The position numbers and the translations under genes were made by a program. Shown here piece by piece: positions 21,247 to 41,281 of a DNA stretch of 64,000 nt. The stretch comes from Caldinitratiruptor microaerophilus (GTDB lineage Bacteria; Bacillota; Sulfobacillia; Symbiobacteriales; ZC4RG38). Each line of letters begins with the position of its first letter. The stretch's first letter is position 1. The stretch lies in contig NZ_AP025628.1 in NCBI RefSeq assembly GCF_025999835.1, forward strand, positions 2,232,001 through 2,296,000. The letters run 5' to 3'. The notes beneath the pieces are model-generated. The model did not search any database, was not told where the DNA came from, and saw only the letters and a list, made by a program, of their open reading frames with translations.

Positions 21247-21879
21247 CTACTCCGCCTTGACGACCTTCAGCGTGCCCCGCTGCCCGAGCTGGGCGTGACC
21301 CGGGATGTCGCAGAGGAACTCGTACGTACCGGGTTCATCGGCGTTCAGTTCCACGGTGCGGCTGGCGCCGGGGGCGATGCCCACCAGCCGCAGGTTGAGC
21401 TCCGGGATGGCGAAGTTGTGCGGGACCGTCCCCTCGTTCTTGACGGTGAGGACCAGCCGCTTGCCCGCCTCCACCTCGATCTCCGCTGGCTCGATCTTCC
21501 ACTCGGTGATCGTCGCGGTCACTTCGACCTTCGCCGCGCCGGGCTGCGCCGGGGCATCGGGAACCTGGTCCGTCCCGCCGGACCCCCACGGGCCGTACCC
21601 GCCCCACATCGCGGCGTGCATGCCCGCCATCCACTGGGCGGCCGCCTCCGGGTCGCCGCCGTGGACCTGGGCGTGCATCCGGCCCATCTGGCGGAAGACG
21701 TCCGGTTCCACGTTGGCCGCATCGCCGGAGCCCCACCACGGGCCCATCATGAAGCCCCACCGGCCGGGACCGGGGCCCCACGCCGCCGCCGCCACCGGTG
21801 CACGGGCAAGGGTGAGGGCGCCGGCCACCACCAGGGCGGCGGCACCGCCAAAGATGATCCACCGCTGCTTGCGCGTCAT
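21247..21879 (-). CDS. exported cupredoxin-domain protein with Met/Trp/Gly-rich spacer
   Basis: A 210-residue protein: an N-terminal hydrophobic signal/anchor (residues 7-32), a spacer of about 80 residues rich in Trp, Gly, Met and His (WGFMMGPWWG, GMHAAMWGGYGPWG), then a plastocyanin-like domain (about 117-208). Copper ligands are His154 (VPHNF), Cys190 and His195 (CDIPGH). The usual axial Met is Gln200 (GHAQLGQ), as in stellacyanin-like sites. The gene is divergent from a sensor kinase; an 18-bp palindrome shared with the copper genes lies 110 bases upstream. Confidence 0.87.
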   Translation of the reverse strand: MTRKQRWIIFGGAAALVVAGALTLARAPVAAAAWGPGPGRWGFMMGPWWGSGDAANVEPDVFRQMGRMHAQVHGGDPEAAAQWMAGMHAAMWGGYGPWGSGGTDQVPDAPAQPGAAKVEVTATITEWKIEPAEIEVEAGKRLVLTVKNEGTVPHNFAIPELNLRLVGIAPGASRTVELNADEPGTYEFLCDIPGHAQLGQRGTLKVVKAE

Positions 21880-21988: not shown

Positions 21989-22006
21989 ATCCCCCATCCG
22001 GGTGAT
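21989..22006. promoter_or_regulatory. 18-bp palindromic motif, site E
   Basis: ATCCCCCATCCGGGTGAT is the reverse complement of site C (49520) with one mismatch. It lies between the divergent cupredoxin (start 21879) and the sensor kinase (start 22101). Confidence 0.55.
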
Positions 22007-22100
22007 GGCGGCTCACCCGTTCGGAGTATGGCTGGAATCTCCCGTCCCGCTTAGGATGAGTCGTAACAAAAGGTATGGTCCAGGCGAGGAGGGGGTCGCG

Positions 22101-24251
22101 ATGCCCTTGGTCCGCCTCCCCAGCCTGCGCGTCCGCATCATGGTCTCGGCCGCCGTGGCCGTGGCCGTGCTCCTCCTTTCGCTCGGCGGCGTGGCGACAC
22201 GGATCCTCCACCACCAGGCAGAGGACGTCATGCGGGAACGCCTGCGCGTAGCGGAACTGGCGGCATCCAGGCTCGACGCCGCCCTCGCCGCCGACCTCGG
22301 CCGCCTCCGCGCGCTGGCGGGCACCGAACCGGTCCGGCCCCTGGCGGTGCAGATCTTCAACCTGGGAATCCTGCGGCTCGACCAGGACGGCCGGGTGCTC
22401 TGGTACAGCCCGGGCCGGTCCGGCGGTGATGCGCCGGCGCTGGCCGGGACTCTGGTCGGTACGCAGGCCTTCCAGACCGCACTGCGCGCGGGCCGGACGG
22501 CGTGGACCGACCTCACGCGCACGCCGGCGGGCCAGCCCGTGGTGGCGGTGCTCGAGCCGGTACCCGGGGCCGGCGGCCGGCCGGCCGGCGTGCTCGCAGG
22601 CGTGATCGACCTCGGCGCGCGCGGCCTGGAGCCCTTCCTGGCCGGCACGCTCCCCGGAGGCAACACCGCCCACGTGGTGCTGGTCGATGGGGACGGTTGG
22701 GTCCTGGCAAGCACCGGGCCGATCCCTCCGTATACACGGGACGAGCACCCCGAGTTCTTCTCTGCACTCATCCGGTCAGGGATGCCCCAGATCGGCCGGA
22801 CCGATGACGGAGCCGGGGACACGCTCCCCCACGTCATGGCCGCGGCCCCGCTGCGCGTCGCCCCCTGGGCGGTCAGCGTGGGCCAGGCCGAACGGGAGGC
22901 CATGGCGCCGGTGAGCCGGCTGCGCTGGCTCCTCATCCTCTTCGGCGCTGCGGCCGTGCTGCTCGCCATCCTCTACTCCTGGTGGGACACCGGCGCGGTC
23001 ATCGAGCCCCTGGCTCGCCTCACCCGGGCAGCCCAGGAGGTCGCCCGGGGGAACCTGGACGAGCCCGTCCGGGTGGAGCGCAGGGATGAGATCGGCACCC
23101 TGGGAGAGGCGTTCGAAACCATGCGACTCCGCCTGCGGGAAGCCCGGGAGGAGCTGCAGCGGGCCCTGGAGGAGGCGAAGCGGCGCGAGCAGGAGGCCGC
23201 GGCGCTGTACCGCGTGGGGAGCGAGATCCTCTCGTCGCTCGACCTGGAAACCATCCTGCAGACGGTCGTCGACCAGGCCCGCACCCTGCTCGGGGCCGAG
23301 GTCGCCGTGCTCTGCCTCGAGGAGGACGGTAGCCTGCGCGTGGCGGCCGCCAGCGACCCGGGCGGGCGGCTCCAGACAGAAGGCGCGGTGGAGACCGCTC
23401 GCAGACCCGACACCGCGCTGTGCGCGGGGTGCCCCGCTCCGGCGGTCGCGTGGCTACCCCAGCGGGCGTCGGCGACCCTGTCGGCCGGCAACCGGACCAT
23501 CGGCTTCCTGTGCGCGGGGGGGCAGAACCCGGTCGGCCCCGTGGAGTCGCGGCTCCTCGCCGGACTCGCAAACCAGGCTGCGATCGCCATCGAGAACGCG
23601 CGCCTTTACGAGAACGTGAAGACGCTGGCGGTGTACGAGGAGCGGGACCGCATCGCACGGGAGATGCACGACAGCGTGGCGCAGTCGCTCGGTTACATGT
23701 ACTCCCGGCTGCGTCTCCTCCAGGACCGCTACCCGCAGGACCGGGAACCGGCGCTGTGGGCCGACCTCGACGACCTGGCCCGGGTCGCCTCCGCCAGCTA
23801 CGACGAGGTCCGGTGGGCCATCTTCGGCCTCCGGACCGGCCGCCCGCACCGCGCGGGTCTCCTGTCGGCGCTCGCGGGCTACGTCCGGGATTTCACCACC
23901 CGTACCGGCGTCCGCGCCGAACTCGCCGGGGAGACCCTGGGGCGGGTCGCCCTGGCGCCCGAGGCCGAGGCGCAGCTCGTCCGGATCGTCCAGGAGGCCC
24001 TCACCAACGTGGCGAAGCACGCCGCCGCCACGCAGGTCTGGGTGCGCGTGGAGGCCCGCGGGGACTCCGTCCACGTGGTGGTGGAGGACAACGGCGTCGG
24101 GTTCGAGCCCGGTGCGAAGGCCGGGCAGGACGGTCACTACGGCCTTGCCACGATGCGAGAGCGTGCGGAGAGCGTCGGGGGGCACCTGGAGATTGACACC
24201 GCGCCCGGCGCCGGCTGCCGGGTCCACATCGCCATGCCGCTCGTTCACTGA
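22101..24251 (+). CDS. membrane sensor histidine kinase (NarX-type) with extracytoplasmic, HAMP and GAF domains
   Basis: About 716 residues. TM1 at 12-34, an extracytoplasmic sensing domain (about 35-270, Cache-like), TM2 near 274-295, HAMP to about 350, a coiled linker (LREAREELQRALEEAKRREQ), GAF (about 365-505), HisKA_3 with His near 523 (AREMHDSVAQSL), then HATPase_c (DNGVGFEPG, HYGLATMRERAESVGG). The ATG at 22101 follows GGAGGGGG; the frame is open further upstream but without support. It is followed after 31 bases by its response regulator. The stimulus is unknown; a cupredoxin lies upstream and an Fe-S/NrfD module downstream. Confidence 0.93.
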   Translation: MPLVRLPSLRVRIMVSAAVAVAVLLLSLGGVATRILHHQAEDVMRERLRVAELAASRLDAALAADLGRLRALAGTEPVRPLAVQIFNLGILRLDQDGRVLWYSPGRSGGDAPALAGTLVGTQAFQTALRAGRTAWTDLTRTPAGQPVVAVLEPVPGAGGRPAGVLAGVIDLGARGLEPFLAGTLPGGNTAHVVLVDGDGWVLASTGPIPPYTRDEHPEFFSALIRSGMPQIGRTDDGAGDTLPHVMAAAPLRVAPWAVSVGQAEREAMAPVSRLRWLLILFGAAAVLLAILYSWWDTGAVIEPLARLTRAAQEVARGNLDEPVRVERRDEIGTLGEAFETMRLRLREAREELQRALEEAKRREQEAAALYRVGSEILSSLDLETILQTVVDQARTLLGAEVAVLCLEEDGSLRVAAASDPGGRLQTEGAVETARRPDTALCAGCPAPAVAWLPQRASATLSAGNRTIGFLCAGGQNPVGPVESRLLAGLANQAAIAIENARLYENVKTLAVYEERDRIAREMHDSVAQSLGYMYSRLRLLQDRYPQDREPALWADLDDLARVASASYDEVRWAIFGLRTGRPHRAGLLSALAGYVRDFTTRTGVRAELAGETLGRVALAPEAEAQLVRIVQEALTNVAKHAAATQVWVRVEARGDSVHVVVEDNGVGFEPGAKAGQDGHYGLATMRERAESVGGHLEIDTAPGAGCRVHIAMPLVH

Positions 24252-24282
24252 CTCGTTGTCCTGAGGAAGGGAGGCGGCCCCA

Positions 24283-24972
24283 GTGGGGACCATCCGGGTC
24301 TGTCTGGTGGACGACCACACGCTGGTGCGGCGGGGTATCGCCGCGCTGCTGGCCGGCGATCCGGAGATCGAGGTCGTGGGCGAGGCGAGCGACGGTCTGG
24401 AGGCGATCGAGCTCACGCGGGCGCTCCGGCCGGACGTCGTCCTCATGGACATCCGCATGCCCGGGTGCGACGGCCTGCGCGCGACCCGGATCATCAAGCA
24501 GGAGATGCCCTCCGTGCGGATCGTCGTGCTCACCGTTTCCGAAGACGACGAGGACCTCTTCGAGGCGGTGAAGGCAGGAGCCCAGGGTTACCTCCTCAAG
24601 CGCATGGAGCCCCGGGACCTCTGCGCCATGGTGCACAGCGCCTACCGGGGCGAGGCCCCGATCGCACCGGCCATGGCGGCGCGGATCATCCAGGAGATCA
24701 GCGGAGGCCCGCGCCCGGACGTCCGGGAGCGTGACGAGGAGGTGCTCTCTCCCCGGGAGCAGGAGGTGCTGGCGCTGGTCGCCCAGGGTCTCGCCAACAA
24801 GGAGGTGGCCGCCCGGCTGGGGATCAGCGAGTACACGGTTCGCAACCACCTCCGCAGTGTCCTGGAGAAGCTGCACCTGCGGAATCGGGTGGAGGCGGCC
24901 GCCTACGCTCTCCAGCGCGGTCTGGCAGCGCCACCTGCCGACCCCGGGCCGCGGGGGCCCGGACCGGTCTAG
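24283..24972 (+). CDS. NarL-family response regulator
   Basis: A 229-residue regulator. Receiver domain with VCLVDDHTLVRRG and phospho-Asp56 (VLMDIRMPG), then a LuxR-type helix-turn-helix (LSPREQEVLALVAQGLANKEVAARLGISEYTVRNHL, split here at the conserved ANKEVAAR). The GTG at 24283 has GGGAGG upstream. It forms a two-gene unit with the kinase before it and a terminator follows. It is the likely regulator of the ferredoxin/NrfD genes downstream, by position only. Confidence 0.94.
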   Translation: MGTIRVCLVDDHTLVRRGIAALLAGDPEIEVVGEASDGLEAIELTRALRPDVVLMDIRMPGCDGLRATRIIKQEMPSVRIVVLTVSEDDEDLFEAVKAGAQGYLLKRMEPRDLCAMVHSAYRGEAPIAPAMAARIIQEISGGPRPDVRERDEEVLSPREQEVLALVAQGLANKEVAARLGISEYTVRNHLRSVLEKLHLRNRVEAAAYALQRGLAAPPADPGPRGPGPV

Positions 24973-25010
24973 GGCTAGCGTGGTTCATCTGTACCATTCC
25001 AGGGCGTTCA

Positions 25011-25047
25011 GGGGGTCATCTGAACCAGGATGGCCCCCTTCACTTTT
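25011..25047 (+). terminator. terminator after the second two-component pair
   Basis: GGGGGTCATC (25011-25020) pairs with GATGGCCCCC (25029-25038) with one G-T wobble, followed by TTCACTTTTG. Confidence 0.7.
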
Positions 25048-25158: not shown

Positions 25159-25617
25159 GTGCGAAACGTGGCCGCTTTCCTGGCGGCGTTCGGCGTGGTG
25201 ATGGGGACAGCGGCCGGGGCATTCGCCCTGACCCAGAACCGGGTCCAGGCGTCCCCCGGGTCCGCCGCCCCGCTGCTGCCGCCGGGTCCCCCGACGGAGC
25301 GGCAATTCACCGTCACCATGGTGATGTTCGGGGGCGAGGAGAACGAGGTGCACCGGTGGACGCCTGGCACGCTGGTGGCGCGGGTCGGTGACCCGATCAC
25401 CCTCCGCGTGCTGAACGCGGACGTCGACTGCGCCAAGTACCCGCACGGTTTCGCCCTGACCGCCTTCGGCATCGACGTCCCGGCGATCCAGGTGGGGGAG
25501 GAGAAGACGTTCACGTTCACCCCCGACAAGCCCGGCGTCTTCGAGTTCAAGTGTTCCAACAAGGATTGCGGAAAGGACCACGACCGGCAGACGGGTCAGC
25601 TCCTCGTCCTGCCGTAG
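25159..25617 (+). CDS. exported cupredoxin with CuA-like Cys-x4-Cys-x3-His site
   Basis: A 152-residue protein with an N-terminal signal/anchor (VAAFLAAFGVVMGTAAGAFAL) and a cupredoxin domain from about residue 48. Candidate ligands are His96 (YPHGFAL), Cys132, Cys137 and His141 in KCSNKDCGKDH, then Gln144. A CuA centre has C-x3-C-x3-H-x2-M; here the loop is one residue longer and Gln stands for Met. It could therefore be a modified CuA or a different copper site. The GTG start at 25159 has GGAGG upstream. First gene of the ferredoxin/NrfD cluster. Confidence 0.8.
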   Translation: MRNVAAFLAAFGVVMGTAAGAFALTQNRVQASPGSAAPLLPPGPPTERQFTVTMVMFGGEENEVHRWTPGTLVARVGDPITLRVLNADVDCAKYPHGFALTAFGIDVPAIQVGEEKTFTFTPDKPGVFEFKCSNKDCGKDHDRQTGQLLVLP

Positions 25618-25631
25618 GGGGCGTCGCTGTC

Positions 25632-26591
25632 ATGACGGACGTATCCCGGCGCCGGTTCCTGGGCCGTCTGGCTGCAGCAGGGGCAGGCGTGGCCGCCAGC
25701 ACCCTGTTGCCCAAGGTGGACCTGGCCGCACACGAAGCGGCCGGCGTCGCCACGTCCCCGATCGGGCTCTCGGGCGAGGGGTTCGCCTTCACCGCCGACG
25801 CGTCGAACACCGGCCGCCTCATCCGCTGGGGGGCGGGGGTGGCCCAGGCCGCGGAGACAGGCAACCCGCCCGAGGCGGGAAACACCCACAACCATCGGGG
25901 CTTTCCGTACCACGTGCCGGCGACCAAGCAGTGGGTGATGGTCATCGACCTCGCTCGCTGCAACGGGTGCGGCGACTGCCAGGTGGCGTGTGGCGCGTTC
26001 CACCGCGTGCCACCGGGGCAAGAGTGGATCAAGATCTTCAAGCTCAAGGACAGCGAGGACGGCACCCCGTACTGGTTCCCCCGGGTGTGCATGCAGTGCG
26101 ACAACCCGCCGTGCGTGAAGGTGTGCCCGGTGGGCGCGACCTTCAAGCGGGAGGACGGCATCGTCCTGATCGACCAGGACCGGTGCATCGGGTGCCGTTT
26201 CTGCCTCGCCGCCTGCCCGTACTCGGCCCGGTACTTCAACTGGGGCGAGCCGCCGGAGTCGCCTGAGGAGAAGGCCGAGCCGTACAACATCGAGATGAAC
26301 ACCCCGCACCGCCGGGGCGTCGCCGAGAAGTGCCTGTTCTGCCCGACGCTGACCCGGCAGGGCAAGCTCCCCGCCTGCGCCGCCGCCTGCCCGATGGACG
26401 CGATCTACTTCGGCGATCGGAACGAGGACGCCGTGACGAACCGGATCGGGGAGACCCTGAAGCTCTCCGAGATCCTGGAGCAGGGCGCTTACCGGTACCA
26501 GGAGGAACTCGGCACCGAGCCGCGGGTGTACTACCTGCCGCCGCGGGGCCGCCGCTACCCGCCGCCGGCCGAGTCCCCGGCCCGGGTCTGA
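25632..26591 (+). CDS. Tat-exported four-cluster ferredoxin (NrfC/DmsB/HybA-like)
   Basis: A 319-residue electron-transfer subunit. A twin-arginine signal (SRRRFLGRLAAAGAG) begins at residue 5. Four [4Fe-4S] motifs follow in the standard order: CNGCGDCQVAC, CMQCDNPPCVKVCP, CIGCRFCLAACP, and CLFC-x11-CAAACP. All 16 cysteines are present. Such proteins link a periplasmic active site to an NrfD-type quinol-interacting membrane subunit, which is the next gene. The ATG at 25632 is 15 bases after the cupredoxin stop. No catalytic molybdopterin subunit is present in this cluster. Confidence 0.95.
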   Translation: MTDVSRRRFLGRLAAAGAGVAASTLLPKVDLAAHEAAGVATSPIGLSGEGFAFTADASNTGRLIRWGAGVAQAAETGNPPEAGNTHNHRGFPYHVPATKQWVMVIDLARCNGCGDCQVACGAFHRVPPGQEWIKIFKLKDSEDGTPYWFPRVCMQCDNPPCVKVCPVGATFKREDGIVLIDQDRCIGCRFCLAACPYSARYFNWGEPPESPEEKAEPYNIEMNTPHRRGVAEKCLFCPTLTRQGKLPACAAACPMDAIYFGDRNEDAVTNRIGETLKLSEILEQGAYRYQEELGTEPRVYYLPPRGRRYPPPAESPARV

Positions 26592-26617
26592 CGCCGGCCA
26601 CGTGAGGAGGGCACGGC

Positions 26618-28006
26618 ATGAAGGAAGGCACCGTGCGTTTCGACGCTGCCGGAGCGACCGTGCAGCTGCCTGTCGGAACCCGGCCGGCTCCGGAGCCCGA
26701 GGAGGCCGGCGTCCCGGAGCTGCTGCTCCCGGTGGTGCGGAGCGGCACCGGCTTCTACGTCCTGCTGGGCGTGCTCGTCGGGACCATCGTCTGGGGCCTC
26801 GTCGCATACCTCAACCAGCTCAAGTACGGCCTGATCGTCACCGGCCTGCGGAGCTACTTCTCGTGGGGGCTCTACATCACCAACTTCGTGTTCTTCATCG
26901 GCGTGAGCCACGCCGGAACCCTCATCTCCGCCATCCTGCGGGTGACCGGGGCCGACTGGCGACGGCCGATCACCCGGATGGCCGAGGTCATCACGGGCGT
27001 GGCGCTCCTCGTGGGCGCCCCCATGGTGATCATCGACCTGGGCCGGCCCGAACGCCTCTTCAACCTCTTCCTCCACGGCCGGCTGCAGTCGCCGCTCCTG
27101 TGGGACGTCATCTCCGTGACGACCTACCTGTTCGGCAGCCTGGTCTACCTGTACTTGCCGATGATCCCGGACCTGGCTGCCCTCTACCCGCACCTGGAGA
27201 CCCGGCGCCCCATCCTGGCGCGCGTCTACCGGGCCCTGTCCCTGGGCTGGCGGGACACGCCCGAGCAGCACCGGCTCCTCGAGAAGACCATCTCCGTGAT
27301 GGCCATCGTGATCATGCCGGTCGCCGTGAGCGTCCACACCGTCGTCTCCTACATCTTCAGCATGACGATGCGCGAGGGCTGGCACTCGTCTATCTTCGGC
27401 CCGTACTTCGTGATCGGCGCGATCTACTCGGGGATCGCCGCGATCATCGTCGCCATGTGGATCTTCCGCCGGGTGTACCGGCTCGAGCGGTACATCACGG
27501 AGATCCACTTCCGAAAGCTCGGCTACCTGCTCCTCGCCGTCGGCCTGGTCTACTTCTACACCACGTTCAGCGAGTACCTGACCATGTTCTACACCGGCAA
27601 GGGTCCTGAACGGCGGCTGGTCACCGACCTGTTCGTCGGCCGCTTCGCCGGGGTGTTCTGGACCGGGATGGCCCTCACCTTCGTGCCGGTGGTGGTCGCG
27701 GCCTTCGCCCGCTGGACGGGGGTGACGGGGCTCGTGCTGGGGTCGTTCGTGGCCAACGTCGGCATGTGGCTCAAGCGCTACATCATCATCACCCCGACGC
27801 TCGCCAACCCGTTCATGCCCATCCAGAACGTCCCCGCCGACTACGCCGTGTACCGCCCCACCTGGGTGGAGTGGTCGATCACCGCCGCCGCCGTGGCCAC
27901 CTTCGTCCTGCTCTACGTCCTGTTCTCCAAGCTCTTCCCGATCGTGTCGATGTGGGAGACTCGGGATCTCGTGGCCGATTCGCACGCAAAGGGGGTGCGA
28001 GGATGA
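26618..28006 (+). CDS. NrfD/PsrC-family quinone-interacting membrane subunit
   Basis: A 462-residue polytopic protein with about ten helices, from GFYVLLGVLVGTIVWGLVAYL near residue 45 to ITAAAVATFVLLYVLFSKLF near the end. The segment YFSWGLYITNFVFFIGVSHAGTLIS carries the NrfD signature, and VVSYIFSMTMREGWHSSIFGPYFV is also characteristic. The family exchanges electrons between quinones and a four-cluster ferredoxin without haem. It follows the ferredoxin by 26 bases and overlaps the next gene (ATGA). Confidence 0.95.
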   Translation: MKEGTVRFDAAGATVQLPVGTRPAPEPEEAGVPELLLPVVRSGTGFYVLLGVLVGTIVWGLVAYLNQLKYGLIVTGLRSYFSWGLYITNFVFFIGVSHAGTLISAILRVTGADWRRPITRMAEVITGVALLVGAPMVIIDLGRPERLFNLFLHGRLQSPLLWDVISVTTYLFGSLVYLYLPMIPDLAALYPHLETRRPILARVYRALSLGWRDTPEQHRLLEKTISVMAIVIMPVAVSVHTVVSYIFSMTMREGWHSSIFGPYFVIGAIYSGIAAIIVAMWIFRRVYRLERYITEIHFRKLGYLLLAVGLVYFYTTFSEYLTMFYTGKGPERRLVTDLFVGRFAGVFWTGMALTFVPVVVAAFARWTGVTGLVLGSFVANVGMWLKRYIIITPTLANPFMPIQNVPADYAVYRPTWVEWSITAAAVATFVLLYVLFSKLFPIVSMWETRDLVADSHAKGVRG

Positions 28007-28662
28007 AGCGGCCAGTGGGCCTTTCTCTCGCAGTTGCAGTCGTCCTCCTCACCCTGGTCGGGCTGGGCGGGGTGGCGCTCGCGCACGGCGGCGAGGCGCA
28101 CGAAGGGGAGGAATCCACCAGCCCGGCCGCTCCGCCGGCCGGGGCAGAGGTGGCCCCGACGGTCTCTCAGACCCCGCAGCTCACGCTCACCCTCTCGCGT
28201 GACGCGAAGGGCACAGGGGTGGCGGAAGCCCGCCTGACCGACGCGATGGGCATGCCCGTGCAGGGCGCGAAGGTCCGCTTCGTCCGCAAGACCACGTTCG
28301 GCGAGCTGGACCTGGGCCCGGCGACCACGGACGGGGCCGGGGTCGCCCGGATGGCGCTGCCGGTGGCTCCCGGCCAGGAGGTGGCCGTGACCGCACAGTT
28401 CGCAGGCGGGGCAGGCCTCGCGGCGGCGAGCGCCGGCGCCACCCTCTCGATCCCCGCCGAACCCGTGCCGGCACGGCCCGGCGGGCTCACCACCCGTTAT
28501 CCGAACCCGTGGTTCGTCGCCATCCTGGCGACGGTCGTCGGGGGCGTGTGGTTCACGTACGGCTGGGTCTTCTGGACGCTCGGGCGCATCCGCCGGCTGG
28601 GCCGGGTGGTGCCCGAGGGCCGGCATCCTGGCCTGGCCGCGCAGGAAGCCACCGCGGACTGA
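28003..28662 (+). CDS. membrane-anchored beta-domain protein of the NrfD cluster
   Basis: A 219-residue exported protein. It has a signal sequence ending near ALAHGGEAHEG, a transthyretin/Ig-like beta domain (about 50-145, EARLTDAMGMPVQGAKVRF), a Pro-rich linker and one C-terminal transmembrane helix (WFVAILATVVGGVWFTYGWVFW). It shares layout and the LTDxxGxPVxGAxxR motif with the protein encoded at 32588-33163 in the ccm operon, so the two are probably paralogous. Translationally coupled to the NrfD gene. No catalytic residues seen. Confidence 0.7.
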   Translation: MKRPVGLSLAVAVVLLTLVGLGGVALAHGGEAHEGEESTSPAAPPAGAEVAPTVSQTPQLTLTLSRDAKGTGVAEARLTDAMGMPVQGAKVRFVRKTTFGELDLGPATTDGAGVARMALPVAPGQEVAVTAQFAGGAGLAAASAGATLSIPAEPVPARPGGLTTRYPNPWFVAILATVVGGVWFTYGWVFWTLGRIRRLGRVVPEGRHPGLAAQEATAD

Positions 28663-28717
28663 GGCATCACCCGCTGCCCTCGGGTGGCGAATCACATCCT
28701 GAGAGGAGGCCGTACCC

Positions 28718-29152
28718 ATGAGGAAGCTCGCCCTGGGTCTCGCCGTGGCCGCACTGACCGTCCTCACAGCTGTGCCCGCCCTGGCCCACCTGGAAAGCTC
28801 CAAGATCACCGCGACCTTCCTGGGCAAGGAGTTCGACGAGCCGGTCTACTACCACACCGAGTCCTTCCGAACCTACGTGCACGGCGAAGACCTGGTCGGC
28901 ATCCTGGGCGGCTCCATGGCCTACGACGCCGCCACGAAGCAGGTGACGGTCAAAAAGGGTGATACCGTCATCGTCATGACCGTCGGCGACCACAAGACGG
29001 CCACCGTCAACGGGCAGCCGGTGGCCATCGACGCCGGCCCGCGCGACCGGGAGGGGGAGATCCTGCTGCCCATCCGCTTCCTCGCCGAGAAGCTCGGCTA
29101 CAAGGTCGCCTGGCACGGCGACCGCCAGCACGTGGAGGTCTCAACGCCGTAG
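28718..29152 (+). CDS. exported copper-amine-oxidase N-terminal-like (PF07833) stalk domain protein
   Basis: A 144-residue protein with a signal peptide (LALGLAVAALTVLTAVPALA) and a copper amine oxidase N-terminal-like domain: VGILGGSMAYDAATKQVTVKKGDTVIVMTVG ... PVAIDAG ... LLPIRFLAEKLGYKVAWHGDRQHVEV, split across the domain. In Gram-positive bacteria this domain is a common extracellular module with no oxidase activity. The ATG at 28718 follows GAGAGGAGG. It is the last gene of the ferredoxin/NrfD cluster, followed by a terminator. Confidence 0.82.
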   Translation: MRKLALGLAVAALTVLTAVPALAHLESSKITATFLGKEFDEPVYYHTESFRTYVHGEDLVGILGGSMAYDAATKQVTVKKGDTVIVMTVGDHKTATVNGQPVAIDAGPRDREGEILLPIRFLAEKLGYKVAWHGDRQHVEVSTP

Positions 29153-29167
29153 CACGCGTATGAAGCC

Positions 29168-29213
29168 GCCGGCCACCCTTCCCCGCGACGGAAGGGTGGC
29201 CGGCCTTGCTTTG
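29168..29213 (+). terminator. terminator of the ferredoxin/NrfD cluster
   Basis: A 15-bp stem, GCCGGCCACCCTTCC (29168-29182) with GGAAGGGTGGCCGGC (29190-29204), then CTTGCTTTG. It separates the cluster from the convergent third two-component pair. Confidence 0.85.
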
Positions 29214-29235: not shown

Positions 29236-29916
29236 CTACGCTCCGGCCGCGCCTTCCGGCGGGTCGATCAGCCCCTCCCGCTGCGCGTACGTCGCTGCCT
29301 GGACCCGGTTCTGGAGGTGCAGCTTCTCCAGGATGTTGCGCAGATGGATCTTGACGGTGTTCTCGGTGATGTAGAGGGCCCGGGCGATCTCCCGGTTCGT
29401 GAGCCCCTTGCCCACCAGGTTGAGGACCTCGCGCTCCCGGGCAGTGAGGGCCGCGAGTCCCTGGCGGGGCGCCCCCGCGGGCGGCTCGGGGGCCGACGCC
29501 ACCTCCGACAGGATCCGGCCCGCGACGCGGCTCGAGATCGGCGCGTAGCCCCGGTACACCTCCCGGATCGAGTCGAAGAGCCGCTCCGCAGGCAGGTTCT
29601 TGAGGAGGTACCCCTGCGCCCCGTGCTTGATCGCCTGGAACAGGTCCTGGTTGTCCTCGGAGACGGTGAGCATCAGGACCTTCGTGCTCGGCATCTCCGC
29701 CTTGATGATCCCCGTCGCGGTGATGCCATCCCCGCCGGGCATCTGGATGTCCATGAGGATGACGTCGGGCATCAGTTCCCGCGCCTTCTCGATGGCCTCC
29801 TGGCCGCTGGCGGCCTCTCCCACGACCTCCAGGTCGGGCTGGGTGCGAAGGAGACTGGCGATCCCCTGGCGCACGAGCTGGTGGTCATCCACGAGCAGGA
29901 TCCGTATGGGCTCCAA
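29236..29916 (-). CDS. NarL-family response regulator
   Basis: A 226-residue regulator with receiver ILLVDDHQLVRQG, phospho-Asp56 (VILMDIQMPG) and LuxR helix-turn-helix (LTAREREVLNLVGKG, ITENTVKIHLRNILEKL). The TTG at 29916 follows GGAGAGGGGG and overlaps the 3' end of the sensor kinase by 32 bases, so the two are coupled. It is closely similar to the regulators at 1429 and 24283. Confidence 0.93.
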   Translation of the reverse strand: MEPIRILLVDDHQLVRQGIASLLRTQPDLEVVGEAASGQEAIEKARELMPDVILMDIQMPGGDGITATGIIKAEMPSTKVLMLTVSEDNQDLFQAIKHGAQGYLLKNLPAERLFDSIREVYRGYAPISSRVAGRILSEVASAPEPPAGAPRQGLAALTAREREVLNLVGKGLTNREIARALYITENTVKIHLRNILEKLHLQNRVQAATYAQREGLIDPPEGAAGA

Positions 29917-31711
29917 CGTTCTGCCCCCTCTCCGGCGTCGCCGGGCCGGAGGGTCCGGCCAGCGGAAGCCGTACCCGGACCTCGCTTCCGGCACCGGGCT
30001 CGCTCTCGACGGTCAGCTCGCCCCCCGCCTTCTCCGCCCGCTCGCGCATGATGCCGAGCCCGAAGTGCCCCGCAGCCTGGACGGCGGCGGGATCGAAGCC
30101 GATCCCGTCGTCCCGCACGGTGACGTGGAGGCCGGAAAGCTGCACGTCGAACCGCACCAGGACACGCCGCGCCCGCGCGTGCTTGACCACGTTGTGGAGT
30201 GCCTCCTGCACGATCCGGATGAGGTGGGCCTCGGAGGCCGGCGGGAGGGGCGGAAGCGCGGCCGGCGGCAGGACCAGCTCGACGTCCAGGTGGTGCGCCT
30301 GTGCGAACTCGTGCAGGTACTCGGCCAGGTATCCGCCCAGGTCCGTCCCCTCGGGCAGGCGCTGCTTGAGGTTGAGGATCGCCTGGCGGACGTCCGCGTA
30401 GGCTGCGGCGCAGGCGGCCTTCAGGCGCTCGAGTTCGCCCGCCAGGTCCGGAACGGGGCCGGACCGCGCGAGGAGCGACAGCGCCTCGAGCCGCAGGTGC
30501 AGGAACGTGAGGGACTGGGCCAGACCGTCGTGGATCTCCCGGGCCAGCCGGTCCCGCTCCTCCAGCATCGCCACCTTCTCGGCCTCACGGTACAGGCGGG
30601 TGTTCTCGAGGGCGATCCCGAGCTGACCTGCCACGTTCTCGAGGAACCGGACCTCTTCGTCCGTGAAGGCGTGCGGCTGCCGGTAGCCCACCAGGAGCGC
30701 CCCGGTGACCTCCCCACGCGCCCCGACGGGAACCGCCAGGCAGGCCACCAGTCCCTCGACCTGGAGCAGCGGGTAGGAGTCGGGATACTCCGTCAGGTCT
30801 TCCGGGAACCGCTCGGTCCGGAGCGGCCGGCCGGAACTGACCACCCGGCCGAGGGCGCCCTGACCCAGCCGCAGCCGGATCCCGGCCACCCGCTCCGGGT
30901 CCCGTGACCCGCTCATGGCCTGGCAGCGCACCTCCCGCTGGACCGGGTCCAGGACTCCGTAGACGGCCACGTCCGCCTGGAGCATGTCCCGGACCCGGGC
31001 CAGGGGCACTTCAAGATTCCGCTCCGCATCCAGGAGCGACGAAAGGCTCCGGCTGATCTCGTACAGCGCCTCCGCCTGGCGCCGCCGCCGCTCCGTCTCC
31101 GCGAGGAGCCGGGCCACCTCCGCCTCCAGTGTCCGCTTCTCGCTGAGGTCACGCAGCACCACGGCCACCTGCACCACCTGCCCGGACTCTCCCGGGACGG
31201 GCGAGAAGCTGGCCGTCACCGGGAGGAGCCGCCCGGTGCCGGTGGCGACGGTCGCCTCCAGATAGGGGATTGCCCGGCCGGTGCGGACGACCTCCGTCAC
31301 CGGACACTGTTCGGGGCCGACGGGACTCCCATCGGGAGTACGGCACAGCTCCTCCCACAGGTGGACGCTGGTCAGGTCCGATTCGCTCCGCCCGGTGAGC
31401 CGCTCGGCGGCGGGGTTCGCCCGGAGGATCCGGCCCTGCGCGTCGGTCAGGAGGATGGCGTCCGAACTGTGCGCGAAGATCGCGTTCAGCTTCTGCTGCT
31501 GCTGGGCCAGGCGGTCGCTCATCCGGCCGATCCAGCCGATGACCACGTGGGTGAACGCCCCGGCACCCAGCACCAGGAAGGCACTGGCGATGAGCGTGCT
31601 CACCAGCGGAGAGGTCACTCGGTCCAGATACGTGTGGCGGACGCCCTCCACGAGAAAGATGCCGAGGACAGCGCTGCTGCCGACAAGCCAGCGAAGCTGG
31701 GCGAGGTTCAC
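29885..31711 (-). CDS. membrane sensor histidine kinase with PAS and GAF domains (NarX-type)
   Basis: A 608-residue kinase. Two N-terminal transmembrane helices (about 5-20 and 35-62, SPLVSTLIASAFLVLGAGAF), PAS (about 75-195, with a Cys pair in WEELCRTPDGSPVGPEQCP), GAF (about 215-375), HisKA_3 with His near 393 (AREIHDGLAQSL), then HATPase_c (DDGIGFDPA, HFGLGIMRERAEKAGG). The very short loop between the two helices suggests sensing in the membrane or through PAS/GAF. The start is the GTG at 31711. Convergent with the ferredoxin/NrfD cluster. Confidence 0.92.
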   Translation of the reverse strand: MNLAQLRWLVGSSAVLGIFLVEGVRHTYLDRVTSPLVSTLIASAFLVLGAGAFTHVVIGWIGRMSDRLAQQQQKLNAIFAHSSDAILLTDAQGRILRANPAAERLTGRSESDLTSVHLWEELCRTPDGSPVGPEQCPVTEVVRTGRAIPYLEATVATGTGRLLPVTASFSPVPGESGQVVQVAVVLRDLSEKRTLEAEVARLLAETERRRRQAEALYEISRSLSSLLDAERNLEVPLARVRDMLQADVAVYGVLDPVQREVRCQAMSGSRDPERVAGIRLRLGQGALGRVVSSGRPLRTERFPEDLTEYPDSYPLLQVEGLVACLAVPVGARGEVTGALLVGYRQPHAFTDEEVRFLENVAGQLGIALENTRLYREAEKVAMLEERDRLAREIHDGLAQSLTFLHLRLEALSLLARSGPVPDLAGELERLKAACAAAYADVRQAILNLKQRLPEGTDLGGYLAEYLHEFAQAHHLDVELVLPPAALPPLPPASEAHLIRIVQEALHNVVKHARARRVLVRFDVQLSGLHVTVRDDGIGFDPAAVQAAGHFGLGIMRERAEKAGGELTVESEPGAGSEVRVRLPLAGPSGPATPERGQNVGAHTDPARG

Positions 31712-34011: not shown

Positions 34012-34689
34012 CTACACCTCCACCAGGGACTCGAACAGGACGTACGGCAGTGCGAGGGCTGCGGCGTCGTAAGCGACCAGAAGCCTCAGCCACAGGCCGG
34101 CGTCTTGCACGGCGCCGGGATCCAGGACCCCCCGCGTGACCTGTACCACCCCCAGGACGAGGGGGACCAGGACCGGGAAGAGCAGCACCGGCAGGAGCGC
34201 CTCCCCGGCCCGCGTCGCCGCGGCCAGCGCCGCCAGGAGGGTCCCCGTGGCCGCAAACCCCACGGTCCCCAGGAGGAGGACCGGCACGAGGGCCAGCGGC
34301 CGGCCGGCGGGACGGTAGTCGAAGAAGAGGAAGTAGGCCGGCACCGCGACAGCCTCCAGCAGCAGGAGGAGGACGGCGTTGGCGAAGAGCTTGCCGTAGT
34401 AGATCGCCGCCCGGTCCACGGGCGCCAGCATGAGCCCGGCCAGCGTGCCGCCCCGAACCTCCCCGAAGAACGACCGGTAGACCCCCAGCATCCCGGCGAA
34501 GAAGACGGTGAGCCACAGGAGACCCGGAAAGACTTGCGGCAGCGCCTCTCTTGCCGGGTCGAGCGCGAAGTTCCACAGGGCCCCGGCGATCAGCGCGAAC
34601 ACCACCATCACGGGGACCACTTCCCGGGACCGGAGTTCCGTCTGCAGGTCCTTCCGGCAGATGGCCAGCGCCGTTCGCAGGAGGCTCAT
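34012..34689 (-). CDS. ccmB: CcmB, membrane subunit of the CcmAB haem-release ABC complex
   Basis: A 225-residue protein with six helices. Family features include AICRKDLQTELRSREVVPVM at the start, WLTVFFAGMLGVYRSFFGE, and LLFPVLVPLVLGVVQVT. It works with CcmA to release haem-CcmE from CcmC. The ATG at 34689 overlaps the ccmA stop by four bases, and ccmC follows after five bases. Confidence 0.95.
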   Translation of the reverse strand: MSLLRTALAICRKDLQTELRSREVVPVMVVFALIAGALWNFALDPAREALPQVFPGLLWLTVFFAGMLGVYRSFFGEVRGGTLAGLMLAPVDRAAIYYGKLFANAVLLLLLEAVAVPAYFLFFDYRPAGRPLALVPVLLLGTVGFAATGTLLAALAAATRAGEALLPVLLFPVLVPLVLGVVQVTRGVLDPGAVQDAGLWLRLLVAYDAAALALPYVLFESLVEV

Positions 34690-35372
34690 CTCGACCCCTC
34701 GCCCGCAAGCGCGCGCAGCGCCCACCCCGCCGGCCCCTCCGCGAGCCGGCCCTCGCGCAGGGTGAGCCAGCGACAGGCCAGCCCCTCGAGCTCGGACGGA
34801 TCGTGGGTGACCACCAGAGCCGCCCCGCCGCGGTCCCGGTGCTCCCGGAGGAGCCCCCGGAGCACCCCGGCCCCCTCGGCGTCGAGCCCCGTGAACGGCT
34901 CGTCCAGGAGCAGCACCGGTGGGTCGTGGAGGAGCGCCCGGGCCAGGGTGAGACGCTGCCGCATGCCGTGGGAGAGCCGGGCCACCTGCAGATGGGTATG
35001 GGGCTGTAGCCCCACCCGCTCCAGAAGGACGGCCGCCCGGCGGAGCGTCTGGGCGCGGCCCAGGCCGTAGAGCCGGCCGTAGAACTCCAGGTTCTCTGCC
35101 ACGGTCAGGGTCGTGTACAGGAGGGACTCGTGCAGGACCACCCCGAGCCGCCGGCGGAGCTCCGCTCCGTCCTCCCGGGCATCCCGGCCCTCGATCCGGA
35201 CGCAACCCGCCTCCGGCCGGAGGAGGAGCGCCAGGATCCGGATCAATGTGGACTTGCCGGCCCCGTTCGGTCCCACCAGGCCCACCACCTCGCCCGGACG
35301 CACGTGCAGGCTCACCCCGGCCAGCACGACCTGGTGCCCCACCCGGTACCAGACCCCCTCGGCGCGGATCAC
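34686..35372 (-). CDS. ccmA: CcmA, ATPase of the haem-release ABC complex
   Basis: A 228-residue ABC ATPase: Walker A GPNGAGKSTLIRIL, a Q-loop variant (VVLHESLLYTTLTV), signature LSHGMRQRLTLARALL, Walker B PVLLLDEPFTGLD and switch His in VVTHDPSE. The GTG at 35372 overlaps the stop of the preceding 261-residue gene (GTGA). The assignment to CcmA follows from its place directly before ccmB and ccmC. Confidence 0.95.
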   Translation of the reverse strand: MIRAEGVWYRVGHQVVLAGVSLHVRPGEVVGLVGPNGAGKSTLIRILALLLRPEAGCVRIEGRDAREDGAELRRRLGVVLHESLLYTTLTVAENLEFYGRLYGLGRAQTLRRAAVLLERVGLQPHTHLQVARLSHGMRQRLTLARALLHDPPVLLLDEPFTGLDAEGAGVLRGLLREHRDRGGAALVVTHDPSELEGLACRWLTLREGRLAEGPAGWALRALAGEGSR

Positions 35373-36154
35373 GGCCGGCTCACTCCGGCCCGCGCCAGGA
35401 GCCGGCGCCCCGACCGCCGCGTCCCGACGACCGCCGCCGCGAAGGCCACGACGATGAAGGCGAAGTTGATCGCGACCTTGAGCGGGTTCCCGCCGTGGGC
35501 GTGGGCAATCTCCCGCTCGCCGGGAGCCAGGGGCGGGGCCTCCGAGAGCCCGCCGGCAGGGTTCGTCGGGTCGGCCGGACCCGGGGCGGGGGCCCGGACC
35601 TGCACCGACAGAGAGGTCCCGGGTGGTACCGTTCCCGGCGTCTGATAGAGTTCGAACCGGATGCCTTCCAGCTCGAAGAGCCCCTGGTTGACGAGCCGGG
35701 GAGCCTCGACCTCGGCCCCCTGCGGCACGGCGAGGTCGAAGCGCCCCACCCCCGCCGGGAAGGCGAGGGACAGATTCGCGTCGCCGGGCGGGAGCGACAC
35801 CGCCACGCCGATCTGGCGCCCGGCCCCCGCTTCGAGCCCGCGCCGGTCCACCAGGGCTCCGCCTTCCGGCTGCAGCTCCCCGGGGGTCTCGCTGCCCCCG
35901 AGTACCACCTCGACCTGCCGGGCCGCGTCCGGCAGCGGCACGACCAGACGGTCGACGCGGCCGGGACCCGGATTCCGGAAGTCCGCCAGGATCATGCCCG
36001 ACCAACCCCCGTCCCGGGGGACCACCACCATGCGGAGGTGCACGAGCACCGGGGGCGTGCCGGTGTCATCTTGTCCCGCGCGGGCGACGGCCGGGGCCAC
36101 GACAAGGGCGAACGCCGCCAAGAACAGGGCGACTCCGGACCGGCGCCGGCTCAT
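35369..36154 (-). CDS. exported protein with C-terminal membrane anchor in the ccm operon
   Basis: A 261-residue protein with a signal peptide (GVALFLAAFALVVAPAVARA), a beta-rich extracellular domain (about 30-190), a Pro-rich linker and one transmembrane helix (VAINFAFIVVAFAAAVV). It overlaps both neighbours by four bases, so it is firmly part of the operon. I do not recognise a family. It may take the place of missing chaperone functions of CcmI or CcmH. Confidence 0.6.
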   Translation of the reverse strand: MSRRRSGVALFLAAFALVVAPAVARAGQDDTGTPPVLVHLRMVVVPRDGGWSGMILADFRNPGPGRVDRLVVPLPDAARQVEVVLGGSETPGELQPEGGALVDRRGLEAGAGRQIGVAVSLPPGDANLSLAFPAGVGRFDLAVPQGAEVEAPRLVNQGLFELEGIRFELYQTPGTVPPGTSLSVQVRAPAPGPADPTNPAGGLSEAPPLAPGEREIAHAHGGNPLKVAINFAFIVVAFAAAVVGTRRSGRRLLARAGVSRP

Positions 36155-36426
36155 CGGGACCCCTCCTCCGCGTCAAGAAGCGCCGCCGCCTGCTCGAGGA
36201 GCGCTTCCCGCAGCGTCTGGTACTCCTCCTCGGACATCTTCCCCGAGCGGTAGTCGTACTCGAGGTCGGCGAGCCGGGCGTAGACCTTCTCCCGTTCCTG
36301 AAGCGGGTCCGGGGGCTCCTCGTCGAAGGCGGGGCCGCTCTCCCGGCGCCTCAGGGGGGCCAGGGCGAAGGCGGCGAGGGCCAGGAAGAGGAACCCGCCC
36401 ACCGCGTACGGCAGGTAGGAAGTCAA
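36151..36426 (-). CDS. CcmI-like short membrane protein
   Basis: A 91-residue protein: one N-terminal helix (YAVGGFLFLALAAFALAPL) and a helical tail YARLADLEYDYRSGKMSEEEYQTLREALLEQA, split here at its SEEEY turn. The LxDLExDxxxGKxxEEEYxxLR pattern is that of the membrane-proximal part of CcmI and of SHOCT-like segments. The TPR part of full CcmI is absent. It lies just after ccmH and overlaps the next gene by four bases. Confidence 0.7.
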   Translation of the reverse strand: MTSYLPYAVGGFLFLALAAFALAPLRRRESGPAFDEEPPDPLQEREKVYARLADLEYDYRSGKMSEEEYQTLREALLEQAAALLDAEEGSR

Positions 36427-36458
36427 CTCTCCGGCTCACCTCACAGACAGGGAACGTC

Positions 36459-36986
36459 TCAGAAGAACTCCAGCCACTCGGCGGCGGCGCGAGCGCGGGA
36501 ACGTGCGGACGGCCTGCGGGCCCGGGGGCCAGGGCCCGGGGCCCCCTCCGCAGCGCCTCCCGCGCCGGGGCTGTCCGCTCCGCCCGGGTAGACCCGCAGC
36601 CAGCGGCGCAGGAGCGTGACCAGGACGGCCCCGCCAAGGGCGACCGCGGCGAACGGAGCCAGCCACATGAGCCAGAACACCCCGCGCCGCGGGGGGTACA
36701 TGAGGATCCACGCCCCGTACCGGGCCTCGTACGCCGCCAGGATCTGCTCCGGTGTCTCGCCGGCGTGGAGGCGCCGCTCCACGTCGGCGACGATCTCCCG
36801 CGAGGGCAGGGTGTCCGAATCCCAGGCGGACAGGTTCTTGCAGAGCGGGCAGCGGATCTGCCTGGCCACCGCCCGGACCTGGTCGGCCGTATGCACGGCG
36901 CCGGCAGGGCGGGCACCGCCGAGGACCATGAGGATGGAGGCGGCCAGGGCCAGCAGAGCCGCACGCACCCGGGACACGGCGGTCAC
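36459..36986 (-). CDS. ccmH: CcmH/NrfF-like apocytochrome thiol oxidoreductase
   Basis: A 175-residue protein with a signal peptide and a CcmH domain. The redox pair is in IRCPLCKNLSAWDSDT (C-x2-C) near residue 46, followed by GETPEQILAAYEARYGAWILMYPP. One transmembrane helix comes next (LMWLAPFAAVALGGAVLV), then an Arg/Pro-rich tail. It reduces the CxxCH thiols of apocytochrome c. The GTG at 36986 follows GGGGAGGT and overlaps the ccmF stop. Confidence 0.92.
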   Translation of the reverse strand: MTAVSRVRAALLALAASILMVLGGARPAGAVHTADQVRAVARQIRCPLCKNLSAWDSDTLPSREIVADVERRLHAGETPEQILAAYEARYGAWILMYPPRRGVFWLMWLAPFAAVALGGAVLVTLLRRWLRVYPGGADSPGAGGAAEGAPGPGPRARRPSARSRARAAAEWLEFF

Positions 36987-39016
36987 CTCCCCGTGAGGCC
37001 GGTCACCGGGGCCGTGGTCGGGCCGGCCTCCGCCGGCGCCGGCAGCGTCCCCGGGGTACCCACCCGCCGGCCGGAGGTCACGCGCTCGGGTTCAGGCCAC
37101 AGGGCGACGAGCGTCCCGGCCAGGAGCAGGTACTGGCCGATCCAGACCCAGGCGACCAGCGGGTTGATGTAGATCTTGTAAGAGGCGGCCCCGGTGTCGT
37201 CCCAGCCGCCAAGCACCACGTAGAGATCCTCAGCCAGGCCGCCCAGGACGGCGACCTCCGTGGTGGGCTGCTCGTTGTAACGGAAGAGCTGCTTCTCGGG
37301 GCGCAGGACCCCGATGTCCCGGCCGTCCTTGCTCACCCCGAGCCGGGCGAACACCTCCACGTGGTCGTCCTCCCGCGCTGCCCACACCCCGCGGTGGGTG
37401 AGCACGTACCGCCCCATCGCGAACGGCTCTCCGGGCCGCAGCGTCACGGTGGCCTCCTGGCTGTACGCGCTCGACCCGATGAAGCCGGTCACCATGACGA
37501 CGATGGCGAGGTGGACCAGGTACCCGCCGTAACGCCGCCGGTTGCGGCTGATGAGGCGCACGAGCGCGACGGGGATGCGCTCGCCGGTCACCTGGCACCG
37601 GGCCTGCACGCCGCGGATGAACTCCTGCACGTGCGCGGCGGCCGCAAATGCGGCCACGGTGAAACCCACCAGCGGAGCCGTGCGGGTGACCCCTGCCAGC
37701 AGCAACACGGCGGCCGCGAGCGTGGCGAACGCGACCGGGTAGAGGTAGGAATGGGCCAGGTTTTCCATCTGCGCCCGCCGCCACGGCAGCAGCGGCCCGA
37801 GACCCATGAGGAGGACCAGGGCGAGCCCGAGGGGCACGTTCACCTGGTTGAAGAAGGGCGGGCCCACCCCGACCTTCATGCCGGTGACCAGCTCCGACGT
37901 CACGGGGAGAAGGGTGCCCCACAGGGTGGCGAAGGTGATCCCCAGGAGGAGCAGGTTGTTCAGCAGGAAGGAGGCCTCGCGGCTGAGGAGCGACTCGATC
38001 CCGTGCGGGCTGGCGTACACGCGCGAGCGGTCGATGAGCAGGTAGACGGACACGACCGCCATGATCCCGATGAAGCCGAGGAAGAACGCCCCCAGCGGCC
38101 CGTTGGCGAACGCGTGGACGGAGACGACCACGCCGCTCCGGGTCAGAAACGTGCCGAAGATCGTCAGCAGGAAGGTGATGACGATGAGGACCACGTTCCA
38201 GCCCTTGAGCATGCCCCGCTGCTCCTGGACCACCGCGGTGTGAAGGAACGCCGTCCCGGTGAGCCACGGCATGAGCGACGAGTTCTCGACCGGATCCCAG
38301 GCCCAGTAGCCCCCCCAGCCGAGCTCCACGTACGCCCACTGGCCCCCGTAGAGGATCCCCATGCTGAGGAACAGCCACGCCAGGAGCGTCCAGCGGCGGG
38401 TCACCCGGAGCCACACGTCGCCCGTGTCCCCGGTGATGAGCGCCGCCATCGCGTACGCGTAGGGCACCGAGAACCCCACGTAGCCGAGGTACGTGTAGAT
38501 GGGATGCAGCATCATCCCCGGATTCTGGAGGAGCGGGTTGAGACCTCGTCCCTCCGCAGCCGGCTCAGGCAGCAGGCGGAACGGCGGGCTGACGAAGTTC
38601 ACCAGCGTCAGGAAGAACACGGCGGTCACCAGCAGGAACGTTCCGACCCACGGTTGGAGCCGCCCGGCGCCGGGATGACGAGTGGAGACGGCCGCGGCGC
38701 TCAAAAGGCTCAGCACCCAGACCCACAGGAGCAGCGAGCCGGCGTTGCCGCCCCAGAAGGCGCCGATCTTGTACAGGAGGTCGAGGTCGCGCGTGGTGTA
38801 GTTCGCCACGTACTCGTACCGGAAGTCCGACGTGACGAGAAGGAACAGCAGCGCGGCCGAGGCAACGGTCGTCAGCAGGGCCACGCCGTAGAGCGCCCTC
38901 CGCCCGACCTCCACCCAGCGCCCGTCCCGCCGCACCGCCCCCAGCACGAACGCCGCGATCCCGAACACGGCCGCGACGAGGGCCCCGGCGAGGGCCAGCC
39001 TTCCCAGGGTGCCCAT
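36983..39016 (-). CDS. ccmF: CcmF, haem lyase subunit of cytochrome c maturation
   Basis: A 677-residue protein with about 14 helices. The Trp-rich haem motif is GGYWAWDPVENSSLMPWLTGTA near residue 230, preceded by YVELGWGG. Conserved His residues are in LHPIYTYLGYVGF and AFLHTAVVQEQRG. It attaches haem from CcmE to apocytochromes. The ATG at 39016 shares its A with the ccmE stop (TGATG). The C-terminal extracellular domain between the last two helices is present. Confidence 0.96.
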   Translation of the reverse strand: MGTLGRLALAGALVAAVFGIAAFVLGAVRRDGRWVEVGRRALYGVALLTTVASAALLFLLVTSDFRYEYVANYTTRDLDLLYKIGAFWGGNAGSLLLWVWVLSLLSAAAVSTRHPGAGRLQPWVGTFLLVTAVFFLTLVNFVSPPFRLLPEPAAEGRGLNPLLQNPGMMLHPIYTYLGYVGFSVPYAYAMAALITGDTGDVWLRVTRRWTLLAWLFLSMGILYGGQWAYVELGWGGYWAWDPVENSSLMPWLTGTAFLHTAVVQEQRGMLKGWNVVLIVITFLLTIFGTFLTRSGVVVSVHAFANGPLGAFFLGFIGIMAVVSVYLLIDRSRVYASPHGIESLLSREASFLLNNLLLLGITFATLWGTLLPVTSELVTGMKVGVGPPFFNQVNVPLGLALVLLMGLGPLLPWRRAQMENLAHSYLYPVAFATLAAAVLLLAGVTRTAPLVGFTVAAFAAAAHVQEFIRGVQARCQVTGERIPVALVRLISRNRRRYGGYLVHLAIVVMVTGFIGSSAYSQEATVTLRPGEPFAMGRYVLTHRGVWAAREDDHVEVFARLGVSKDGRDIGVLRPEKQLFRYNEQPTTEVAVLGGLAEDLYVVLGGWDDTGAASYKIYINPLVAWVWIGQYLLLAGTLVALWPEPERVTSGRRVGTPGTLPAPAEAGPTTAPVTGLTGR

Positions 39017-41003: not shown

Positions 41004-41016
41004 CCCTCACCACCTC

Positions 41017-41039
41017 GAGGGATCACCCAGCGATCCCTC
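41017..41039 (-). promoter_or_regulatory. inverted repeat upstream of the Rieske gene
   Basis: GAGGGATC (41017-41024) and GATCCCTC (41032-41039) with a 7-base loop, between the YHS-like gene and the Rieske start codon. It could be an attenuator or a regulator site. Confidence 0.4.
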
Positions 41040-41066
41040 CGCCGAAGAGCAACCTGGAGGCGGGCC

Positions 41067-41264: not shown

Positions 41265-41281
41265 GCCGATCACCTCCTTTC

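Follow-up and report, generated by a model that had tools for sequence, protein, structure and literature searches.

A module of five genes on the forward strand of the hot-spring bacterium Caldinitratiruptor microaerophilus, a microaerophilic nitrate reducer in culture (PMC9933637), encodes a cupredoxin, a four-cluster ferredoxin-type iron-sulfur (FeS) protein, an NrfD-type quinone subunit, an Ig-like membrane protein and a PF07833 protein. The module occupies positions 25159-29152 of the window analysed here, i.e. the 64-kb stretch at positions 2,232,001 to 2,296,000 of contig NZ_AP025628.1. We propose that the products of its four-gene core probably make up a menaquinol:cupredoxin oxidoreductase in the membrane, related to alternative complex III (ACIII) but minimal, in which a copper carrier stands in place of the haem carrier. 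This proposal is based on the gene content of the module, the families of its proteins, its position in the NrfD tree, the absence of a molybdenum (Mo) subunit gene and gene fusions in relatives. The features of the module are as follows.

25159..25617, + strand: cupredoxin, GTG start, 152 amino acids (aa)
25552..25581, + strand: copper loop C132-SNKD-C137-GKD-H141 (C-x4-C-x3-H), the same in close orthologues
25632..26591, + strand: FeS subunit with four [4Fe-4S] clusters, exported by twin-arginine translocation (Tat), of the DsrO/NrfC/ActB-C-terminus type (16 Cys, twin-Arg motif, DsrO model, PDB matches)
26618..28006, + strand: NrfD quinone subunit of ActC type (PF03916; profile against ActC structures)
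28003..28662, + strand: structural subunit with an Ig-like (Big_1-type) extracytoplasmic domain and a C-terminal transmembrane helix (orthologues, NrfD fusions)
28718..29152, + strand: PF07833 protein, predicted to be exported (Pfam, 73.3 bits)
29168..29204, + strand: GC-rich terminator hairpin of 15 bp at the operon 3' end (hairpin scan)

The spacings from the first gene to the fifth are 14, 26, -4 (an overlap) and 55 bp, and three of the five starts are preceded by a Shine-Dalgarno-like GGAGG or GAGG. Gene calls, Pfam, the fold model and orthologues bear out the initial annotation of this DNA, which had described five same-strand genes of these types, and the hairpin at 29168-29204 is the terminator that it had placed at the operon end.

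The FeS protein stands alone as a chain of 319 aa with the twin-arginine motif SRRRFLG and, as had been read from the letters, exactly 16 Cys in four cluster motifs. It scores 189.3 bits against the DsrO model (cut-off 200) and 145 against QrcC (cut-off 400), and its PDB matches are PsrB and the C-terminal part of ActB. NrfD scores 120.8 bits against PF03916 (cut-off 25.8), 113.1 against the DsrP model (cut-off 350) and 55.4 against QrcD (cut-off 570). When its profile is searched against solved structures, the four ACIII structures lead the matches with their ActC subunits (1e-71 to 1e-76); all PsrC chains fall short of the threshold. Residues S158 and D163 are invariant with ActC, aligning with conserved ActC residues; from this alignment they would fall, at the level of region, in the quinone site as given by the NrfD literature. 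The Big_1 domain of the Ig-like protein scores just below its cut-off (31.6 versus 34.9 bits) and a sequence search with this protein against solved structures gave no match; the identity of the gene is backed by orthologues adjoining NrfD in relatives.

The initial annotation also held that no catalytic subunit is encoded here, and this stands: there is no molybdopterin gene in the 64-kb window, nor in the cluster of close NrfD relatives. In the window's genome, the molybdopterin genes closest to the module lie about 49 kb upstream and about 42 kb downstream, while the four other NrfD genes are each adjoined by a molybdopterin gene, leaving the module as the exception. We sampled relatives from ten further Bacillota genomes, in which the NrfD is moderately to closely related, together with 80 named loci from many phyla, and called neighbour genes by script, seeded on the NrfD frame, before clustering them. 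In each of the 22 Mo-linked loci, the gene directly ahead of the FeS gene is a Mo gene. This is so in none of the 68 others, and the upstream sequence exceeds 3.5 kb in 50 of these. In a maximum-likelihood tree of 94 NrfD sequences, one branch (support 100/99, present in all 200 bootstrap trees examined) splits 65 Mo-less rows from 29 others, the latter being the Mo-linked loci, ACIII ActC and three incomplete loci; distant NrfD rows were left out, as they gave long-branch joins. Because the split falls on one supported branch, the absence of Mo is a property of a large lineage.

In these relatives, FeS and NrfD form a constant core that is usually accompanied by a transmembrane Ig-like protein akin to the product of the fourth gene in the window's module. 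The Ig domain is fused to the NrfD C-terminus in Terriglobia, Gemmatimonadota and some Bacteroidales, which argues that the Ig-like protein is a subunit rather than a bystander, and cupredoxin-Ig fusions (L022, L100, L148) extend the argument to the cupredoxin. The fold of the cupredoxin domain of L022 matches the NosZ and ba3 CuA domains (the whole model has a low pTM of 0.39, and the cupredoxin part was used). Of the 68 Mo-less loci, 19 have a cupredoxin gene no more than four same-strand genes away, versus 0 of the 22 Mo-linked loci (Fisher p = 0.005, which is indicative only, since the loci are related). On the tree, this association is scattered over several branches and requires nine changes, of which at least six are forced by supported branches, with gains and losses not separated.

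The kind of carrier differs among lineages. C-x4-C-x3-H cupredoxins occur in the window, in G041, in G168 and as one of the Armatimonadetes CSP1-3 cupredoxins, while those of Terriglobia have the CuA motif C-x3-C-x3-H-x2-M, exact except in L060. Chloroflexota modules have membrane-anchored type-1 cupredoxins, and the partner at other Mo-less loci is a mono-haem cytochrome or a CxxCH in the Ig subunit. Overall, the cluster includes a carrier, copper or haem, in 32 of the 36 Mo-less loci with flanks longer than 2.5 kb. Since mono-haem cytochromes, Ig-borne haem and type-1 or CuA-motif cupredoxins hold this position in relatives, it is carrier-like, and the best reading places the window's cupredoxin there as a carrier, a catalytic role not being favoured. 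The initial annotation had allowed for either a catalytic or a donor position; it is the position of redox partner that holds up. It had also named a molybdoenzyme or cytochrome gene always present in the cluster of relatives as evidence against its proposal: the relatives in this group have no molybdoenzyme, and many do carry a cytochrome, in the place of the carrier.

The window's cupredoxin has a hydrophobic N-terminal helix, which is a signal or an anchor. It scores just below the Pfam cut-off (25.4 versus 27 bits); despite this, its AlphaFold2 model (pLDDT 83.9) makes the fold assignment clear. Among solved structures, nitrosocyanin comes closest in fold (Z 14.4, 32% identity), followed by NirK domains and the NosZ CuA domain (Z about 12). 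The copper ligands are probably H96, C132, C137 and H141, as read from the sequence, and the loop that holds the last three is conserved in L114 as well as in the two close orthologues, L025 and L145. With the CuA domains of COX2 and NosZ the protein shares the cupredoxin fold and the set of His, two Cys and His, including the upstream His; it differs in being a separate protein and in its loop, which fails the CuA pattern C-x3-C-x3-H-x2-M. With nitrosocyanin it shares the fold, but the position of the nitrosocyanin Glu ligand is a His, a second Cys is added, and the nitrosocyanin equivalog model gives 26.1 against a cut-off of 142.85. Among 398 Bacillota genomes, the close family of this cupredoxin (E < 1e-60) is found in the window's genome and G168 only, and the module is present in both.

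Under the proposal, the four proteins would form a complex in C. microaerophilus with quinol as the donor. The ActC-type NrfD would bind menaquinol close to the outer face, and the Tat-exported FeS subunit would accept the electrons and hand them on singly via its four [4Fe-4S] clusters. The Ig-like subunit, a one-helix anchor beside NrfD, would organise the outer face, and the copper-loaded cupredoxin would take single electrons to extracytoplasmic acceptors. Such a complex would do without the Mo-like domain and the haem subunits, its copper carrier replacing an ActE-type haem carrier. The quinone-linked copper route put forward in the initial annotation is thus retained as the best reading, with the copper protein predicted to sit at the redox-partner position. 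A broader proposal, to which we give about even chances, is that Mo-free ACIII-like quinol oxidoreductases made of FeS, ActC-type NrfD and Ig-like subunits, with a slot for a copper or haem carrier, form a widespread family not described before, and that in some lineages a CuA-motif protein would pass electrons to MtrA/B/C for extracellular electron transfer.

Several points weigh against a menaquinol:cupredoxin oxidoreductase. No acceptor gene adjoins the module in the window's genome. The Met of a classical CuA site is absent from the cupredoxin, and its loop is longer by one residue. No carrier is seen in 4 of the 36 Mo-less loci with flanks longer than 2.5 kb. Locus L152, which falls on the Mo-less side, does have a Mo gene, placed four genes downstream and with an FeS gene of its own; it is the sole exception of any kind among the 68 Mo-less loci. 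Lastly, the gene calls are mechanical and absence was judged inside the flanks, and many loci are metagenome contigs, some of them short.

Candidate acceptors are found beside the module in relatives. Three Bacteroidales loci (L121, L122 and L127) have, after the core, genes for SCO, for aa3 oxidase subunits I, III and IV and for a subunit II with CuA and haem c, and in Terriglobia the cupredoxin lies near MtrA-type (L060, L062), MtrB-type (L074) and MtrC-type (L060) genes. Both sets of neighbours fit a quinol:carrier oxidoreductase, and the Mtr neighbours also allow the reverse direction, in which the cupredoxin would collect electrons from an extracytoplasmic donor and FeS/NrfD would reduce menaquinone. 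NrfD complexes run in either direction, and QrcCD reduces menaquinone from cytochrome c3 (PMC13059093). The MtrA/B conduits of Terriglobia would suit the oxidation of an outside donor, yet the aa3 oxidase operon of Bacteroidales and the affinity to ActC point to quinol oxidation, and the reduction of menaquinone from high-potential copper centres would be uphill; we therefore regard reverse flow as rather unlikely.

A catalytic cupredoxin, with a site like that of nitrosocyanin at which NO or some other small molecule would react using electrons supplied by FeS/NrfD, appears improbable. The nearest solved fold is indeed that of nitrosocyanin, the regulators next to the module are NarX/NarL-like, and qNOR, present in each of the three genomes whose modules are closest (the count being those three), places NO in their physiology. 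Against this, the ligand changes and the low equivalog score described above separate the protein from nitrosocyanin, and relatives use type-1 or CuA-motif cupredoxins and mono-haem cytochromes at the same position. We also considered qNOR as an acceptor of the module, and set this idea aside in spite of its presence in the three closest genomes, because qNOR takes electrons directly from quinol.

There is little to suggest that a gene outside the module supplies the FeS/NrfD pair with a catalytic subunit, whether molybdopterin or multihaem. The window's genome contains roughly a dozen genes of the molybdopterin type, but the other four NrfD genes each adjoin a Mo gene of their own, and the entire group to which the module belongs is without the Mo gene that its sister group carries. 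It is very doubtful, too, that the cupredoxin works in denitrification as the dedicated electron source of NirK or NosZ. Cupredoxins supply NirK/NosZ-type enzymes in other bacteria, and NirK, NosZ, qNOR and caa3 oxidase genes are all found in the window's genome, away from the module; however, neither NirK nor NosZ was found in any of the 10 other Bacillota genomes checked that carry the module, one of which has an 82% identical NrfD, and several relatives carry NirK without the module. Finally, a copper chaperone or copper-defence protein co-transcribed by chance is hardly credible: P-type Cu-ATPase and CsoR genes lie 13-20 kb from the module, and copper ATPase genes lie near it in G041 and G008, but the association is repeated in separate branches, is accompanied by fusions to the Ig subunit, and gives way elsewhere to haem carriers.

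Among known systems, the ACIII of Chloroflexus is a menaquinol:auracyanin oxidoreductase with haem subunits, and its auracyanin genes are distant (PMC3150298). The module shares with ACIII an ActC-type NrfD and an ActB-like four-cluster FeS domain, and would likewise pass electrons from quinol to a one-electron carrier, which is a copper protein in one ACIII case. By contrast, ACIII has a Mo-like ActB domain fused to its FeS domain, which the FeS subunit of the module does not have; a pentahaem ActA and a mono-haem ActE, when no c-type cytochrome gene is found in the module operon; and a second NrfD-like protein, ActF, which has no counterpart in the window. Conversely, the Ig-like subunit belongs to the module and not to ACIII, and the copper protein gene lies within the operon rather than at a distance. 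Without ActA, ActE and a Mo-like ActB, the module is not ACIII proper, though it would be ACIII-like in action. The route from ACIII to auracyanin is a known case of an NrfD-type complex reducing a copper protein, so the view that a copper route of this kind had not been described is too strong.

The same holds for the view that FeS/NrfD pairs normally serve a catalytic subunit. SirCD of Shewanella is an FeS and NrfD quinol dehydrogenase without a catalytic subunit of its own, and Cbc4 (CbcSTU) of Geobacter is a three-subunit relative with a cytochrome (PMC11434368). SirCD has the FeS and NrfD pair in common with the module; it serves CymA cytochrome respiratory pathways, and neither a cupredoxin nor an Ig subunit is mentioned for it in PMC11434368. 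Cbc4 shares a quinone-linked membrane subunit, an FeS subunit, one redox partner and the lack of a Mo subunit, but its partner is a c-type cytochrome, the nearest equivalents here being distantly similar loci with tetrahaem, FeS and NrfD genes (L081, L087, L097). DsrO and DsrP of DsrMKJOP are the best named models for the FeS and NrfD proteins, both below cut-off, and DsrM, DsrK and DsrJ genes are absent from the module cluster. Qrc likewise links a periplasmic one-electron carrier and menaquinone through an FeS/NrfD pair, but it has Mo-like and multihaem subunits and no copper protein, and the QrcC and QrcD scores of the module are below cut-off; QrcB-like Mo subunits were found in the Mo-linked sister group. 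Molybdopterin enzymes with an NrfCD-type membrane module have their catalytic subunit in the cluster, where the module has none. No description of a cupredoxin and NrfD as one module was found in the literature searched, most subscription journals lying outside it; PMC5244752 names both "cupredoxin" and "NrfD", separately.

The fifth gene is a clear PF07833 member (cut-off 24.2 bits). We rejected it as a conserved subunit, a di-haem cytochrome c gene holding its place in the closest relative, G041 (L026:1261-2064). No homologue of this cytochrome was found in the window's genome, in a search run without a positive control that carries little weight. At L148:5623-6798 (- strand), next to the same kind of FeS/NrfD module, a single protein combines a PF07833 domain with two type-1 cupredoxin domains; this fusion may account for the presence of a PF07833 gene in the window's operon.

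Other relatives show further variation. An EB_dh-type (haem b) periplasmic protein adjoins the module at L095:11517-12488, with a similar-looking protein in L106, and is possibly a third kind of carrier. In L100, L111, L114, L115, L152 and L024, NrfD is followed by one or both of two secreted proteins (~190-260 and ~480-570 aa) without cofactor motifs. Locus L119 (Bacteroidales) has two tandem FeS-NrfD sets, one with a separate Ig protein and the second probably with a longer NrfD to which the Ig domain is fused. Histidine kinases beside Chloroflexota modules (L085:4663-6162; L086, L092, L093, L103) have two CxxCH motifs and are possibly haem-binding sensors.

In the window, a probable regulatory pair lies directly upstream of the module.

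22002..24251, + strand: NarX/NarQ-like sensor histidine kinase (open reading frame limits), probable regulator (NarQ model, 161.8 bits; cut-off 553)
24283..24972, + strand: NarL-type (LuxR family) response regulator, upstream of the module
25010..25039, + strand: terminator-like hairpin between the regulator genes and the module (hairpin scan)

A kinase and regulator pair adjoins the module in many relatives, and a scan for sigma-70 promoters was negative. The window holds three kinase/LuxR-type regulator pairs (1429-3677, 22002-24972 and 29236-31711), two of which flank the module. A second cupredoxin gene (21247-21879, - strand), divergent from the kinase gene, encodes an unusual Trp/Met/Gly-rich N-terminal segment (GPGPGRWGFMMGPWWGSG), and a similar protein is encoded ~9 kb past the window end (L155:9067-9705). 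A third (43852-44322, - strand) has a CDICCGG...M loop and adjoins DsbD-like, CsoR and copper ATPase genes. Downstream of the module lie a cytochrome c maturation cluster (34012-39471, - strand) and a Rieske/cytochrome b complex (40470-51957, - strand), the latter indicating that the organism has a conventional bc-type route too. Just beyond the window end, locus L155 includes a formate dehydrogenase-like gene (G000:C1:2300477-2302075) with one in-frame TGA, probably for selenocysteine.

Respiratory chains centre on quinol:acceptor oxidoreductases, and to our knowledge haem is used by all the well-known ones (bc, b6f and ACIII). If true, a route that leads from quinol via FeS clusters to copper and needs no haem would add a respiratory architecture to these. 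C. microaerophilus is a cultivated thermophile, so a direct test of the proposal is feasible, and the link from copper to MtrA/B in Terriglobia offers a testable way of joining quinones to extracellular electron transfer. A Mo partner gained or lost once across many phyla bears on the origin of ACIII and of the Mo-containing NrfD complexes. On the best reading, related modules with interchangeable copper or haem carriers extend across many phyla, and that of C. microaerophilus would be a menaquinol:cupredoxin variant of ACIII-like complexes.

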